Positions 28,033 to 34,128 of a stretch of DNA of 34,128 nt are shown in pieces. The translations under genes were made by a program, and so were the position numbers. How positions within the stretch are numbered: position 1 is the first letter of the stretch; each line of letters opens with the position of its first letter. Below the pieces are notes generated by a model. It ran no database searches, was not told the origin of the DNA, and worked only from the letters and a program-made list of their open reading frames with translations. Source of the stretch: Granulosicoccus sp. (GTDB lineage Bacteria; Pseudomonadota; Gammaproteobacteria; Granulosicoccales; Granulosicoccaceae); NCBI GenBank assembly GCA_013002205.1, contig JABDKN010000125.1:1-34128 (forward strand). The letters are read 5' to 3'.

Positions 28033-29430
28033 TCAGGATTGTACCTTGAGGCGCCTGAGCAGCTGCAGTGTGATACCACCTTTATCGATACCCTCGGCAG
28101 TCTGATAGTCCGCAATGGCCTTCAGTGTTCCCCGGCCCATGATGCCGTCTATCGGGCCAGGGTCGAAGCCTTCTCGCTTCAGTGCGCGTTGCAGCGACGT
28201 GACGATCTGGCGCGTCATGTTGGCTTCGCAAAGCACCTGCTTCCACTCGGCCTGAGCCGGCGACAGTTCTATCTGACTGGTGACTGTCTTGGTTCGCGCC
28301 GGTATGGTTATACGACGCTCGGACGCCGGCGATACCAGGCGCTGCACGGTAATCGTCTGGTAACGGGCCGGAATGACTGAGTTCTTCGTCGAAGCAGGCT
28401 CGCTGACCACTTCACGCGTTATGTTGGCGTACTCGGCCGGACGTTGTGTCAGGCAGATCTCCCGGCCCGTCGCAACGGCATTGGAGTCTGCGGTCTCCCC
28501 TTTCGCCAGCCAGAAGAAAACCGGGTCGGCGACCTTTACACGTCGGTTTACCGAGGTGTATTCAGCGGGCACATCCACACGTTTTTCAGACGCTGGCCGG
28601 ACCAGTCGCTGTACTTTGATTGTCTTGTACACAGCCGGTATGTTGATGGTCTTGGTCGTGGCAGGCTTGTCCTGCACCGTCTTGGTCAGTGTCTCGTAGC
28701 GCGCAGGCACTTCAACCAGGCACATGACTTCACCCGTCGCATTATCTACCCGTTCGATCACACCACAATTCTCCTGCCAGACGCTGCGGGCTGGTTCGAC
28801 CAGAACCGATTCCGTTTCGGTACGATAGACTGCAGGTACGTCCACCACTTCGCTGGATGCCTCCTTGACGACAACCCGCTCCTCCACGGTTTCATATTCT
28901 GCAGGAACCACACTGATAGTCTGCGTGGCTTCCTTCACCATCACCTGCACGGTTTCGGATTTGTACTGCGCTTCGGTGTAATACTCGGCAAAGCAGCTGC
29001 CCGGATCGACGCTCTTGGTATCGATGCCGGAGCGTGAAATATGTTCGATGGCATCAGGGCTGGCCGGCATCACCCTGGAACCCACCCGGGTAGTCCAGGT
29101 GAGTTCGGCGGGCCGCACTTCCACCTTGTCGGTTTCCTTGGAGAAGACCGTCGGCGTCACCTCGATCGCCTGCCCTGCATCCTTGACGATGATGGTCTGG
29201 TCGGCAGATTCATACGTGGCTTCCACTGTCTCGATACGCTCGGAAGCCTCCTGGACGATGATCTCCTCACTTCGTGTCTCGAAGCGTGCCGGTGTGATCA
29301 CTTTTGCATAGCACTCACCCGGTTTGGCATCGGGCAGTACCAGATTGTTATCGACTTGCTGGGCGGTCACAGGCAAGATAATGAGACAACTACCCAGGAC
29401 ACCCAACAGGGGCAAGGTCAATTTACGCAC
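28033..29430 (-). CDS. Exported modular repeat protein with peptidoglycan-binding domain
   Basis: 465 residues: signal peptide (1-23, cleavage after PVTA), four modules of about 75 residues, and a C-terminal peptidoglycan-binding domain (about 403-463; LQRALKREGFDPGPIDGIMG and TLKAIADYQ). Each module opens with a Cys (40, 146, 237, 326), holds about three subrepeats of 20-25 residues of the form PAxYxTxxxxVxVxxAS, and closes with a Trp near an acidic/polar patch. Subrepeats alternate beta-strand-like segments rich in Val, Thr, Glu and Lys. It is probably a periplasmic or surface protein attached to the cell wall. I know no function for the repeats. The upstream gene on the same strand encodes the Kelch/TSP3 protein. 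Confidence 0.85.
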   Translation of the reverse strand: MRKLTLPLLGVLGSCLIILPVTAQQVDNNLVLPDAKPGECYAKVITPARFETRSEEIIVQEASERIETVEATYESADQTIIVKDAGQAIEVTPTVFSKETDKVEVRPAELTWTTRVGSRVMPASPDAIEHISRSGIDTKSVDPGSCFAEYYTEAQYKSETVQVMVKEATQTISVVPAEYETVEERVVVKEASSEVVDVPAVYRTETESVLVEPARSVWQENCGVIERVDNATGEVMCLVEVPARYETLTKTVQDKPATTKTINIPAVYKTIKVQRLVRPASEKRVDVPAEYTSVNRRVKVADPVFFWLAKGETADSNAVATGREICLTQRPAEYANITREVVSEPASTKNSVIPARYQTITVQRLVSPASERRITIPARTKTVTSQIELSPAQAEWKQVLCEANMTRQIVTSLQRALKREGFDPGPIDGIMGRGTLKAIADYQTAEGIDKGGITLQLLRRLKVQS

Positions 29431-29503: not shown

Positions 29504-31117
29504 TCAATGTTTCTGATCGATAGAGCGTAAAACAACGTATTTTCGCCGAAAGATTGACGTTTTTCGGATCAGCCGCGACAGCGTAACGACTCCAAGTGCG
29601 GCCAGCAGCCATGCAGTTGCACTACCGCCATTTTTTCCAGCCGACGTCACCGCACTGTCGGGCACCAATGGCTCAGGATCTTCCGAATCGTTCAGCCCGT
29701 CATCATCGGAATCCGCATCCAGTGGATCTGTACCGGCAATGATCTCGGCACCGTCGTTCAGCCCGTCCAGATCCGAATCTGCATGATTGATATCGGTACC
29801 TCTATCTACTTCATCAGCATCTTCCAGGCCATCGCCGTCCGAATCGGTTCGGCGTGGATCCGACCTCCATACCAGCACCTCCGCACCATCACCCAGACCA
29901 TCCTCATCAGTATCCTGCACTATAGGGCTGGTCAGGTGGACGTTGATCTCATCACCATCAGTCAACCCGTCCTCGTCCGAGTCGCTGCGGTTCGGATCGC
30001 TGCCATTGGCCACTTCGGCACCATCGATGGCACCATCGTCGTCACTGTCCGCATCCAGAGGGTCGGTGCTGTAGACAGACGTCTCCTGCACATCGCTCAA
30101 GCCATCACCGTCCCGATCCGGGTCGACGCCCAGTGCAAGGGTTTCGTGCGAGGCGGTCTCGCCGCCGCCACCTTTGACATTGCTGCCGGAGACGACATGC
30201 CAGGTCCTGCCCATGAGCGCGGAACCACCACTGTGCCGGGCCTCATTCATCGGCTGCAGGGCACGCCAGGTATTGGTATCCAGATCGTAGGCTTCGGTTA
30301 CTTTGAGTGCGGTGCTCTGTGTATTGATTTCGCCACCCGCCACCAGCACCTCATTGCCAGCCGCCACCGCCAGCGCACCTGCGCGCAGGGTCGGAATGTC
30401 GGCTCCGACATGCCAGGTGGCCGTCGCAATATCAAATATATCGGTGGCGGCAACGCCTTTGTCGAACACGTCTGGCAGATCGCTGCGTCTGCCACCGGCA
30501 GCCACCAGCCTGCCACTCACGACCACCAGTGCGAAGTGATCCCTGGCATGCGGTGCATCCGGCAGGCTCGTCCATGTCCGGCTGACAGGATCATACCGGT
30601 CCAGCCAGTCGACGGCGCCGCCATTATGTCCCAGGGTATTTCCACCAAGCACATATATATGACCGTTGTACTCTGCCGCTGCTGCCGAGCCGCGCAGTCG
30701 ACTGGCGGGCATGGTCCCCACCGTCGCCCATTGCTCGGTGACCGTGTCAAACGTGTGGATTTCGGCAACGCTGGGTTCATCCGGGAAACAACAGGTCATC
30801 GCCCCGATCACATAAATGGTCGACCCGATAGCGACCGGTTGAAAATGGTGCAGCTCCATGGGTGCATTGCCAATTACACGCCATTGCCCGGTCACAGGAT
30901 CGTACACCTGCACCGGCCGGACGCCACGACCACCTAACAGGTAGAGCTTGCCATCCACCGCCACCGCAGCGGATTCATGACGAGCCACGGCGGTGCTGCC
31001 ATCGCTGCTGGTAACCGACTGCCAGGGTGTGGTGTCGTCCGTTGCCGCCATCACCGCCATCGCGTAGATCAGCGACAGGGGGACCAGCAGATGGAGTAGA
31101 AATCGACGCAGCGGCAT
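29504..31117 (-). CDS. Exported Kelch-repeat / thrombospondin type 3 protein with C-terminal anchor
   Basis: 537 residues. A signal peptide (1-25) precedes about six Kelch blades (about 44-325; recurring YxLGG and YDPxTxxW motifs), predicted to form a beta-propeller. Next come thrombospondin type 3 calcium-binding repeats (334-485), seen as repeated DSDxDGLxDGxE. A Gly/Ser linker and one hydrophobic segment (about 500-515, from ATAWLLAALG) with a following Arg/Lys cluster form a C-terminal anchor resembling GlyGly-CTERM sorting signals, though with an 18-residue tail after the basic cluster. The protein is probably displayed on the cell surface or outer membrane with calcium-rigidified stalk. 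Ligand unknown. Confidence 0.9.
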   Translation of the reverse strand: MPLRRFLLHLLVPLSLIYAMAVMAATDDTTPWQSVTSSDGSTAVARHESAAVAVDGKLYLLGGRGVRPVQVYDPVTGQWRVIGNAPMELHHFQPVAIGSTIYVIGAMTCCFPDEPSVAEIHTFDTVTEQWATVGTMPASRLRGSAAAAEYNGHIYVLGGNTLGHNGGAVDWLDRYDPVSRTWTSLPDAPHARDHFALVVVSGRLVAAGGRRSDLPDVFDKGVAATDIFDIATATWHVGADIPTLRAGALAVAAGNEVLVAGGEINTQSTALKVTEAYDLDTNTWRALQPMNEARHSGGSALMGRTWHVVSGSNVKGGGGETASHETLALGVDPDRDGDGLSDVQETSVYSTDPLDADSDDDGAIDGAEVANGSDPNRSDSDEDGLTDGDEINVHLTSPIVQDTDEDGLGDGAEVLVWRSDPRRTDSDGDGLEDADEVDRGTDINHADSDLDGLNDGAEIIAGTDPLDADSDDDGLNDSEDPEPLVPDSAVTSAGKNGGSATAWLLAALGVVTLSRLIRKTSIFRRKYVVLRSIDQKH

Positions 31118-32734: not shown

Positions 32735-33439
32735 CTACCCACGCGGCCATTCCCCGGTGCCGTCCAGATCGACCAGCTCAAAGTCCAGTTCGTCTACCGA
32801 ATCCGGCAATTCAGACTCGGACAATGAGGGTATATCCAATTCACGCGACAGAGGACTGCGCAGCCCTCGCGATCCCGGCTTGCGCGTGTACGAACTTGTC
32901 ACTGCCTCGTTGCCATCGGGTGCCGCTTCGAGAGAGTGCAGGGAGGCTTGTGTATTTCGGCTGATGGCAGGTTCGTTGATTCTCTTCTGCAGGACGGGTA
33001 ATTCATTGGCCCCCGACCAGGAATCCGGTTTGTTCCTGGCCAGCTCCAGCTCCCTGGACTTGTTGGATTTGTAGCTGGCGAAATCTCGTTTCAGGCGAAT
33101 CTGTTGATCTTCATAGGAGGCAACCTGCGATTCCAGAGTCTGGATACGCTGAGCCTGCAATTGCGCGTGGACATCCAGTGCTTCCTCGCGCTTCAAGGTG
33201 GTCTGTGCCCGCTCCTCGGACTCCGCCAGTGACTGTCGCAGAACATCGAGGTCGGCACGCGCCGATTGCAGATCGGCTTCGGCGGATTTCAATCGAGTGA
33301 GTTCCCGCCGCACATCGTCTATGACCATGCGTGCACGTCGCTTGGCGCGTAGCAGGGCCACGCAATACCCCATGACCGCTCCCAGAGCGGTGGCGGCCAA
33401 CAGGCTGTACAGCAGAGTTGTGGGCGAATCGACGTTCAT
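32735..33439 (-). CDS. Membrane-anchored coiled-coil protein
   Basis: 234 residues with no family that I recognise. A single hydrophobic N-terminal segment (about 9-30) followed by basic RAKRRAR suggests an inner-membrane anchor with the rest in the cytoplasm. Residues about 40-130 are heptad-rich coiled coil (SAEADLQSARADLDVLRQSL, and more). The C-terminal 90 residues are polar, low-complexity and acidic at the end. The start overlaps the stop of the OmpA-like gene as ATGA, so both are translated together and probably work together in the envelope. Confidence 0.8.
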   Translation of the reverse strand: MNVDSPTTLLYSLLAATALGAVMGYCVALLRAKRRARMVIDDVRRELTRLKSAEADLQSARADLDVLRQSLAESEERAQTTLKREEALDVHAQLQAQRIQTLESQVASYEDQQIRLKRDFASYKSNKSRELELARNKPDSWSGANELPVLQKRINEPAISRNTQASLHSLEAAPDGNEAVTSSYTRKPGSRGLRSPLSRELDIPSLSESELPDSVDELDFELVDLDGTGEWPRG

Positions 33440-34128
33440 TGGCTGATGTCCTCCGCAGACACTCTGACACGGTGTGTGCCTTCGGGTAAATCGTTGCCAG
33501 ACTCGATGCGAATCCGGAAACGTTTTTTCTCAAGTCCTCGCTGGATCAGGTAGGAAGCGATTGCCCGACCACGATCACGACTCAACACATTGTCAGCGGC
33601 ACTGCCATCAGACTCATTGGTGGCCAGAGATACCAGTATCGGTACGTCCGAGTACAGGTACAGCAAGTCGAACATACCATCCAGAGCCCGCTGGGTAGCC
33701 TTGGAAATCGTGGCGGAGCCCGGCAGGAAGCGCAGGCGCAGAGACAGGCCGGACAGGATTTTCAACTCGCGGTCCCTGACTCGTTCATATTCCCGCATCT
33801 GCCTGGCCAGCGCCGCGATACGCGACGCTTCGGCAGCAGCAGCTTGCTTTGCCCGATCAGTGACATCAGTGTCGGCAATCGCCACCTTCAAGTCTGCCTC
33901 ATTGTTATCCGCTGCCAGGGCCGCAGACGCAAGCCGCTTTTGTTCTTCGGCTTCGACTTCAGCCTGCAAGCGTGCTTCTTCCGCCGCCTCGGCTTCGGCC
34001 TGCAGGCGTGCTTCTTCCGCCGCCTCGGCTTCGGCCTGCAGGCGTGCCTCCTCGGCCGCCTCGGCTTCAGCCTGCAAGCGTGCTGCTTCCGCCGCCTCGG
34101 CTTCAGCCTGCAAGCGTGCCTCCTCGGC
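33436..34128 (-). CDS. OmpA-like protein with long Ala/Glu coiled coil (5' end cut by window)
   Basis: At least 230 codons, open to the window edge; the N terminus is missing. The visible N part is a regular 12-residue repeat (AEAEAAEEARLQ) for at least five units, then a shorter helical stretch rich in Ala. The C-terminal part (from GLSLRLRFLPGSATISKAT to IESGNDLPEGTHRVRVS) looks like an OmpA/MotB-type peptidoglycan-associated domain, with the LSRDRGRAIASYLIQRGLE segment typical of the family. The architecture resembles TolA-like linkers joined to an OmpA domain, spanning the periplasm. It is translationally coupled to the next gene by ATGA. Confidence 0.85.
   Translation of the reverse strand, partial: AEEARLQAEAEAAEAARLQAEAEAAEEARLQAEAEAAEEARLQAEAEAAEEARLQAEVEAEEQKRLASAALAADNNEADLKVAIADTDVTDRAKQAAAAEASRIAALARQMREYERVRDRELKILSGLSLRLRFLPGSATISKATQRALDGMFDLLYLYSDVPILVSLATNESDGSAADNVLSRDRGRAIASYLIQRGLEKKRFRIRIESGNDLPEGTHRVRVSAEDISQ
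33963..34128 (-). repeat. 36-bp tandem repeats within the coiled-coil coding region
   Basis: Four full 36-base units (33963-33998, 33999-34034, 34035-34070, 34071-34106) and part of a fifth up to the window end, differing at only a few bases each. Each encodes 12 residues (AEAEAAEEARLQ-like). The high DNA identity points to recent unit duplication, so the copy number probably varies between strains. Confidence 0.9.

Follow-up and report, generated by a model that had tools for sequence, protein, structure and literature searches.

The window, a 34,128-nucleotide stretch of a Granulosicoccus sp. contig, carries at positions 28033–29430 on the minus strand a gene with a GTG start that encodes a 465-residue protein predicted to bind peptidoglycan and to fold as a giant hairpin. 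Plus-strand ORFs overlapping it are taken for antisense shadows. Directly upstream on the same strand, after a 73 bp gap, a gene at 29504–31117 encodes Kelch repeats together with bacterial TSP3 repeats, and its product ends in a Gly-Gly, hydrophobic and basic tail which presumably resembles a C-terminal sorting signal. A further envelope gene nearby, encoding an OmpA-domain protein, is cut by the window end (33437–34128, minus strand) and adjoins a coiled-coil-like ORF at 32735–33439.

The protein begins with a predicted signal peptide (residues 1–23; 29362–29430) and continues into four modules, all of the following features being encoded on the minus strand and named after their places in the proposed fold. 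Module 1 (residues 40–122; 29065–29313) contains three 23-residue subrepeats and is followed by a mid-ribbon loop (residues 123–145; 28996–29064) with a short predicted helix at 125–133. Module 2 (residues 146–220; 28771–28995) is followed by a tip turn (residues 221–235; 28726–28770) that leads into a conserved TGE-[IV]-M-C motif. Module 3 (residues 236–310; 28501–28725) starts with the tip residue Cys237, and a second mid-ribbon loop with approximate boundaries (residues 311–316; 28483–28500) joins it to module 4 (residues 317–402; 28225–28482), whose last landmarks are Trp396 and, at the ribbon foot, Cys401. A PG_binding_1 domain (residues 407–449; 28084–28212) completes the protein. The module limits follow strands predicted by AlphaFold2 and the pairing of modules follows covariation. 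A lipobox script flags the protein as a lipoprotein, a candidate assignment that was rejected: Cys15 lies inside the signal peptide and is not conserved in orthologues, and by eye cleavage between VTA and QQ fits signal peptidase I, so that the protein is counted as secreted.

Each subrepeat is anchored on the proline of PAxY or the corresponding residue, and these anchors fall at positions 47/70/93, 153/176/199, 242/265/288 and 331/354/377, with an anchor-to-anchor step of exactly 23 residues throughout every module. Each module opens with a cysteine (40/146/237/326) and closes with a tryptophan (112/218/307/396), and Cys401 follows the last module. The first-pass annotation, made from the DNA sequence, had described four modules of three subrepeats with a cysteine near the start and a tryptophan at the end, all of which holds in the 465-residue ORF. 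It had also proposed repeat detection as a check; when the repeat part is aligned to itself without gaps, the best offset (89) has a BLOSUM62 score of 248, whereas none of 300 shuffles exceeds 60, and this together with the exact step bears out the repeat, the module repetition not being due to chance.

An alignment of 60 proteins, consisting of the window protein and 59 of the 80 fetched relative loci (the 21 omitted being mostly near-duplicates, plus a fragment and some doubtful starts), gives the subrepeat consensus P A x [YF] x T V x x [RK] V L V x [PE] A S x x x x x [IV]. Each of the 23 positions is occupied by a letter in all 720 cells (12 subrepeats in 60 proteins). Residues that are invariant in 60 of 60 proteins, the window protein counted, include Cys40, Cys146, Cys237, Cys326 and Cys401, Trp218, Trp307 and Trp396, and Gly135 in the first mid-ribbon loop; Trp112 is conserved in 90% or more. 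Strong conservation is also seen in TGE-[IV]-M-C-L at the tip and in G135, C146 and E149 of the mid-loop. Cys222 is present in some close relatives only.

Pfam recognizes PG_binding_1 (PF01471) at residues 407–449 (E 4e-8; 33.7 bits compared with a curated cut-off of 23), and the C-terminal model (residues 401–462) matches SltB3 (5ao8) with Z 10.1 and an r.m.s.d. of 1.8 Å over 61 aligned residues. Among the 60 members (Pfam, E<=0.01), PG_binding_1 is found in all 60, PG_binding_2 in 17 and PG_binding_3 in four, with five other families each in one or two. The wall attachment put forward by the first-pass annotation is supported by this domain, as predicted binding, and the domain would fix the ribbon foot to peptidoglycan. 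The PG_binding_1 proteins SltB3, SleB and CtpB have the same C-terminal domain but carry an enzyme, whereas no enzymatic domain is found by Pfam in the window protein, the remainder of which is the repeat.

Pfam, NCBIfam and PDB sequence searches recognize the wall domain and not the repeat: the four Pfam matches of the window protein at E<=1 leave the repeat part without a catalogued family, NCBIfam matches no family in more than three of the 60 members over the two-module stretch (E<=0.1) and a sequence-profile search of the PDB gives a single match at E 0.23. The earlier statement that the repeat matches none known by name therefore stands against these collections, and no characterized repeat family with a known function emerged. 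A search of the open PMC literature (titles and the starts of abstracts) found no description of the repeat or the family. Foldseek gives no match against the PDB at E<=0.001 and one against viral models, with a TM-score of at most 0.23, which is not convincing and excludes no family. VIA-align likewise yields nothing convincing for the repeat part and excludes no family; 12 of its 15 weak rows (Z 2.0–3.4) are pore-forming proteins, over ranges that we take to fall on their long hairpin stems. The likeness to these β-hairpin stems is geometric at most. The Z values lie far below significance, no sequence relation is seen and pore formation by the window protein is not suggested.

AlphaFold2 modelling of the full protein from the 60 sequences gives a mean pLDDT of 75, with values of ∼80–90 within modules, lower values at module ends and values below 50 in the linkers (pTM 0.42). 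In nearly every subrepeat the model has strands of 12 and then 7 residues, each followed by a two-residue break, in agreement with the β-rich units foreseen by the first-pass annotation; the structure prediction that it had proposed as a check thus returns regular strands and not disorder. When modules 3 and 4 are modelled alone the best model reaches 87–94 in the repeat blocks, with the five models differing widely (mean pLDDT 85, 74, 67, 62 and 49), and since it holds these two modules only it is uninformative as to nested pairing. The strand breaks are PA and xA, which are not typical turn sequences; this and the weak hairpin-stem-like matches suggest continuous kinked strands paired at long range.

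Strand pairing was assessed by averaging covariation along antidiagonals (i+j=K, in module coordinates) and comparing all registers of a module pair, with z expressed in standard deviations over registers and with phylogeny kept. In APC-corrected mutual information (MI) from 97 proteins of 3-3-3-3 architecture (subrepeats per module), K=77 stands out for modules 1 and 4 (z 4.3) and modules 2 and 3 (z 4.9), and in 102 non-redundant 3-3-3-3 proteins it is first of 96 registers for both pairs (z 4.2 and 4.7). Mean-field direct-coupling analysis (DCA) with a reduced alphabet again ranks K=77 first of 96 for both (z 4.6 and 4.7). A weaker MI lead at K=77 for modules 2 and 4 (z 2.2, 102 proteins) is removed by DCA. 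For the 4-4 proteins the register K=100 was predicted before testing; 60 more loci were fetched, and in 67 non-redundant 4-4 proteins (effective number 26) K=100 ranks first of 123 (MI z 4.4, DCA z 5.1). Re-dealing the second halves among proteins abolishes the register signal (24 z values <=1.5 for 3-3-3-3 and 12 <=1.1 for 4-4).

The 3-3-3-3 set was also split. In the 62 proteins that remain without L001–L051 and everything titled Granulosicoccaceae, the register ranks first for modules 2 and 3 and second for modules 1 and 4, and in the 40 dropped proteins it ranks first for modules 1 and 4 but only fourth for modules 2 and 3. Half of the top 50 inter-module MI pairs (25, of which 20 are in modules 2/3 and 1/4) lie within two residues of register against a background of 6.1%, as do 11 of the top 50 for the 4-4 proteins against 4.8%. 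Charge complementarity, which is a measure of its own, ranks K=77 first of 80 registers for modules 1 and 4 and third of 80 for modules 2 and 3, with ranks of 22, 28, 46 and 63 for the other module pairs, and K=100 ranks second of 103. The first half of the protein is acidic on average and the second half is basic, with mean net charges over 97 proteins of −2.9, −1.4, +5.6 and +7.0 for modules 1 to 4.

In the numbering of the window protein the register is i+j=439 for modules 1 and 4 and i+j=456 for modules 2 and 3. It places twelve predicted strands end to end opposite twelve others (49–60 with 379–390, 63–69 with 370–376, 155–166 with 290–301 and so on), pairing 12-residue with 12-residue strands, 7-residue with 7-residue strands and PA breaks with xA breaks. 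The strand layout alone also fits module 1 paired with module 2, so that it is the covariation that decides the pairing. Covariation, and not the model coordinates, shows that the first and second halves pair antiparallel, module 1 with module 4 and module 2 with module 3. In the DCA of the 3-3-3-3 proteins, modules 1 and 2 (z 3.5) and modules 3 and 4 (z 4.8) also show parallel coupling in register (D=0), similar in size to the hairpin signals; the hairpin does not explain this, and repeat homogenization or a lateral contact would be a guess at its origin.

Two tandem hairpins, with module 1 on module 2 and module 3 on module 4, would be permitted by the equal module lengths and by the AlphaFold2 strands, which align for such pairing too, but this arrangement is very unlikely: at the register the DCA ranks modules 1 and 2 30th and modules 3 and 4 80th of 96 (modules 1 and 3 rank 33rd and modules 2 and 4 22nd), and each supposed pair carries like charge, modules 1 and 2 both being acidic on average and modules 3 and 4 both basic. 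Nearest to the first-pass annotation is a stiff rod of stacked units, in which each subrepeat forms a β-solenoid coil or a small sheet. The strict 23-residue period and the β prediction would suit such a rod, as would a within-module coupling at D=23 in the 4-4 proteins that exceeds its neighbours (0.05, DCA), although this coupling may also come from repeat homogenization. The cross-arm coupling is nevertheless about twice as strong in the 4-4 proteins (0.099 versus 0.051 at D=23) and over ten times as strong in the 3-3-3-3 proteins (0.095 for modules 2 and 3 versus 0.007, near background), a solenoid predicts no antiparallel cross-arm register and the PA and xA breaks are not typical turn residues, all of which makes stacking very unlikely. 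The proposal of a stiff rod is thus retained in part: the protein is probably elongated, but its units are not simply stacked, as covariation pairs the two halves antiparallel.

Covariation is blind to whether the paired strands belong to one chain or to two, and the same ribbon could be built by two chains that dimerize antiparallel, with the tip or foot cysteines perhaps locking them together. The five conserved cysteines are an odd number, which would leave one spare for a partner. On the other hand, the connection from one arm to the other is short, as in a direct hairpin (18 residues between Trp218 and Cys237 in the window protein and 12 in L146), and the arms are mostly equal within one chain. 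The dimer is accordingly considered unlikely, and a single nested giant hairpin is the most likely form of the antiparallel halves.

The positions of the cysteines were compared with this register. Cys40 and Cys401 sum to 441, two off register. Two further facing pairs are Cys237 with Trp218, at the tip, and Cys326 with Trp112, both of which deviate from register by no more than one residue. In the nested hairpin Cys146 and Cys326 would flank the mid-ribbon loops, and a disulfide between Cys40 and Cys401 may close the ribbon at its foot. All five cysteines are kept in 105 of 105 3-3-3-3 proteins, and all three in 70 of the 73 4-4 and 6-6 proteins, the other three losing the tip cysteine only, as expected if the foot cysteines bond to each other. 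Against a foot disulfide, the short relatives L146 and L217, which have no wall domain, also lack the closing cysteine. The inter-module disulfides suggested in the first-pass annotation are therefore plausible from the cysteine positions, the bonds themselves being inferred.

The family is large, and the proposed search for further proteins with the subrepeat found many of them. At least 567 relatives were confirmed in a scan of named genomes. The 80 that were retained are mostly titled Gammaproteobacteria and include Granulosicoccus (up to 72% identity), Arenicella, Neptuniibacter, Amphritea and Vibrio, as well as bins titled Sulfurovum, Sulfurimonas, Desulfobacula and Nitrospirae, although the titles of metagenome bins can be wrong. 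The cultured marine species Neptuniibacter marinus and Pseudomaricurvus alcaniphilus are among those with a member. Matches at E<=1e-5 occur in 52 of 95 genomes (own included), and 47 of the 48 genomes of the window's family, Granulosicoccaceae, carry a relative as counted from the match list. At class level the count is 58 of 369 genomes (E<=1e-10), at least 11 of which match through the wall-binding domain alone as judged from match ranges, and at phylum level the repeat profile matches in 18 of 299 genomes (own included). The sole other match in the protein's own genome has E 0.24. A phage or plasmid origin was considered and rejected: three phage records match in the wall-binding domain alone, most of nine matching plasmid records do so around that domain and searches of viral contigs found no relative. 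Subrepeats are absent from the Paracoccus plasmid protein and were not found at the Polaromonas place; a Methylobacterium plasmid ORF (L217) is a 2-2 version of the repeat.

A position-weight scan of 194 ORF sequences, some of which are pieces of one gene, reads 105 as 3-3-3-3, 71 as 4-4, two as 6-6 and one as 3-3, counts that are not a random sample, since similarity to the window protein decided which relatives were fetched and the 4-4 forms were picked by hand from match lists. Equal arms are thus read by script in 179 of the 194. The remaining 15 were examined by subrepeat spacing: L003, L051, L038, L207, L211, L215 and L145 look like the usual types in which a single subrepeat misses the threshold or a single step is irregular, and by eye L140 and L141 can be read as 3-3. 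L035 and L132 (one protein), L105 and L154, all truncated at a contig or locus end, and the broken copy L150 are not counted as equal-armed. A home-made profile finds the wall-binding domain in 105 of 105 3-3-3-3 proteins, 69 of 71 4-4 proteins (one of the two exceptions, L181, is cut by a contig end), both 6-6 proteins and 10 of the 16 others. A lipobox pattern is present in 34 of 105 3-3-3-3 and 49 of 71 4-4 proteins, often followed by a charged, heptad-like linker; these counts are rough, with at least L001 and L010 being false positives and L155 and L196 looking like missed lipoproteins. Many relatives are thus predicted lipoproteins.

Taken as a whole, the protein is probably a giant nested antiparallel β-hairpin with a wall-anchored foot that would act as a passive strut or tether of the envelope. 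The chain would run out along modules 1 and 2 and return along modules 3 and 4, with each 23-residue subrepeat adding 12- and 7-residue strand segments split by paired two-residue breaks (PA opposite xA) that are read as bulges. Both chain ends would lie at the foot, with Cys40 near Cys401 and with Cys237 at the tip, and the foot would be held to peptidoglycan through PG_binding_1. In the predicted lipoprotein relatives the N-terminus would be lipid-anchored through the linker, presumably in the outer membrane. The simplest and likeliest role, judging from the predicted domains and fold, would be that of a strut, spring or tether of the envelope.

With ∼158 paired residues per arm and 3.3 Å per residue, the ribbon would have a contour of at most ∼50 nm (∼30 nm for 4-4 proteins). 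The simulated distance between the outer membrane and the wall of Escherichia coli with Lpp is 8.3 nm (PMC8824477); in such a gap a ribbon of ∼50 nm could not stand straight and would have to be coiled, run along the wall or extend past it. A more specific proposal, which is possible but held tentatively, is that these proteins are covalently closed, equal-armed two-stranded β-ribbon needles of ∼30–50 nm contour serving as wall-anchored periplasmic rulers or springs, the halves of one chain, each a single kinked path of 23-residue units with paired bulges, zipping in register (2+2, 3+3, 4+4, 6+6 or two times 3+3) and the needles, in many species, also being anchored to a membrane.

The main functional rival keeps the hairpin fold but replaces the mechanical strut by a wall-bound scaffold or ligand-binding platform serving an enzyme or a surface polymer. 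The conservation of TGE-[IV]-M-C-L, G135, C146 and E149 goes beyond the seeming need of a passive spacer. Against this, no gene neighbour is common to more than 13 of 81 loci, which also led to the rejection of an operon partner; the commonest shared neighbours are a YdjM-like gene downstream (13 of 81) and the cluster of the Kelch/TSP3 gene (11 of 81). The platform is regarded as rather unlikely, and the passive strut or tether is preferred.

Known envelope tethers differ from such a strut in part. The order of lipobox, linker and C-terminal wall-binding domain in Lpp and Pal/OmpA-type tethers is also seen in many relatives (linker features by eye). Lpp, however, is a short helical trimer, unlike the repeat protein. 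Neither LPP (PF04728) nor OmpA/Pal (PF00691) is among the four Pfam matches of the window protein (E<=1), and the Pfam LPP model matches none of the 48 genomes of the window's family, with a positive E. coli control. The own genome contains 19 OmpA-domain matches, so that other tethers probably exist; the protein family bears on how the outer membrane is attached to the wall in bacteria whose 48 searched genomes gave no LPP match.

Another likeness is to the G5–E repeats of SasG/Aap, which according to PMC4458895 form an elongated, wall-attached stalk of tandem repeats with single-layer β-sheets. As described there, G5 and E are consecutive triple-stranded domains, whereas the window protein pairs two distant halves. 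The G5 profile is not among the eight Pfam families matched by the 60 members (E<=0.01), and the single-layer triple-stranded G5–E fold is absent from the Foldseek and VIA-align rows shown, which excludes nothing. Wall-anchored repeat stalks are known, but the zipping of a first half onto a second half (∼150 residues per arm) was not found in the searches made, in a family whose repeat has no Pfam or NCBIfam match. The pairing rule, the register and the cysteine scheme are concrete and testable on one purified protein.

The reach of the ribbon would be set by the number of subrepeats, and several relatives depart from the usual lengths. A rule that arms are always equal is broken by L143, in which the script reads 10 and 5 subrepeats and the second count is 6 by eye; no other sequence gathered is clearly unequal. 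Two adjoining genes on the minus strand of this locus both lack a wall domain; one is 4-4, and the other, with about 10+6 subrepeats, several of them near-identical, looks like a one-sided expansion. L150 (G231:C1) has a stop within module 4 and a shortened module 2, and a second place in the same genome scores equally. Both 6-6 members (L039 and L151) have by eye an extra N-terminal stretch of ∼150 residues before the ribbon, with its own shared Cys. The most extreme repeat expansion is in L035:2-4897 (G029:C220), a 1632-residue ORF cut by the contig start, in which 56 detected subrepeats, 51 of them in a single unbroken and visibly basic array, are followed by the wall-binding domain.
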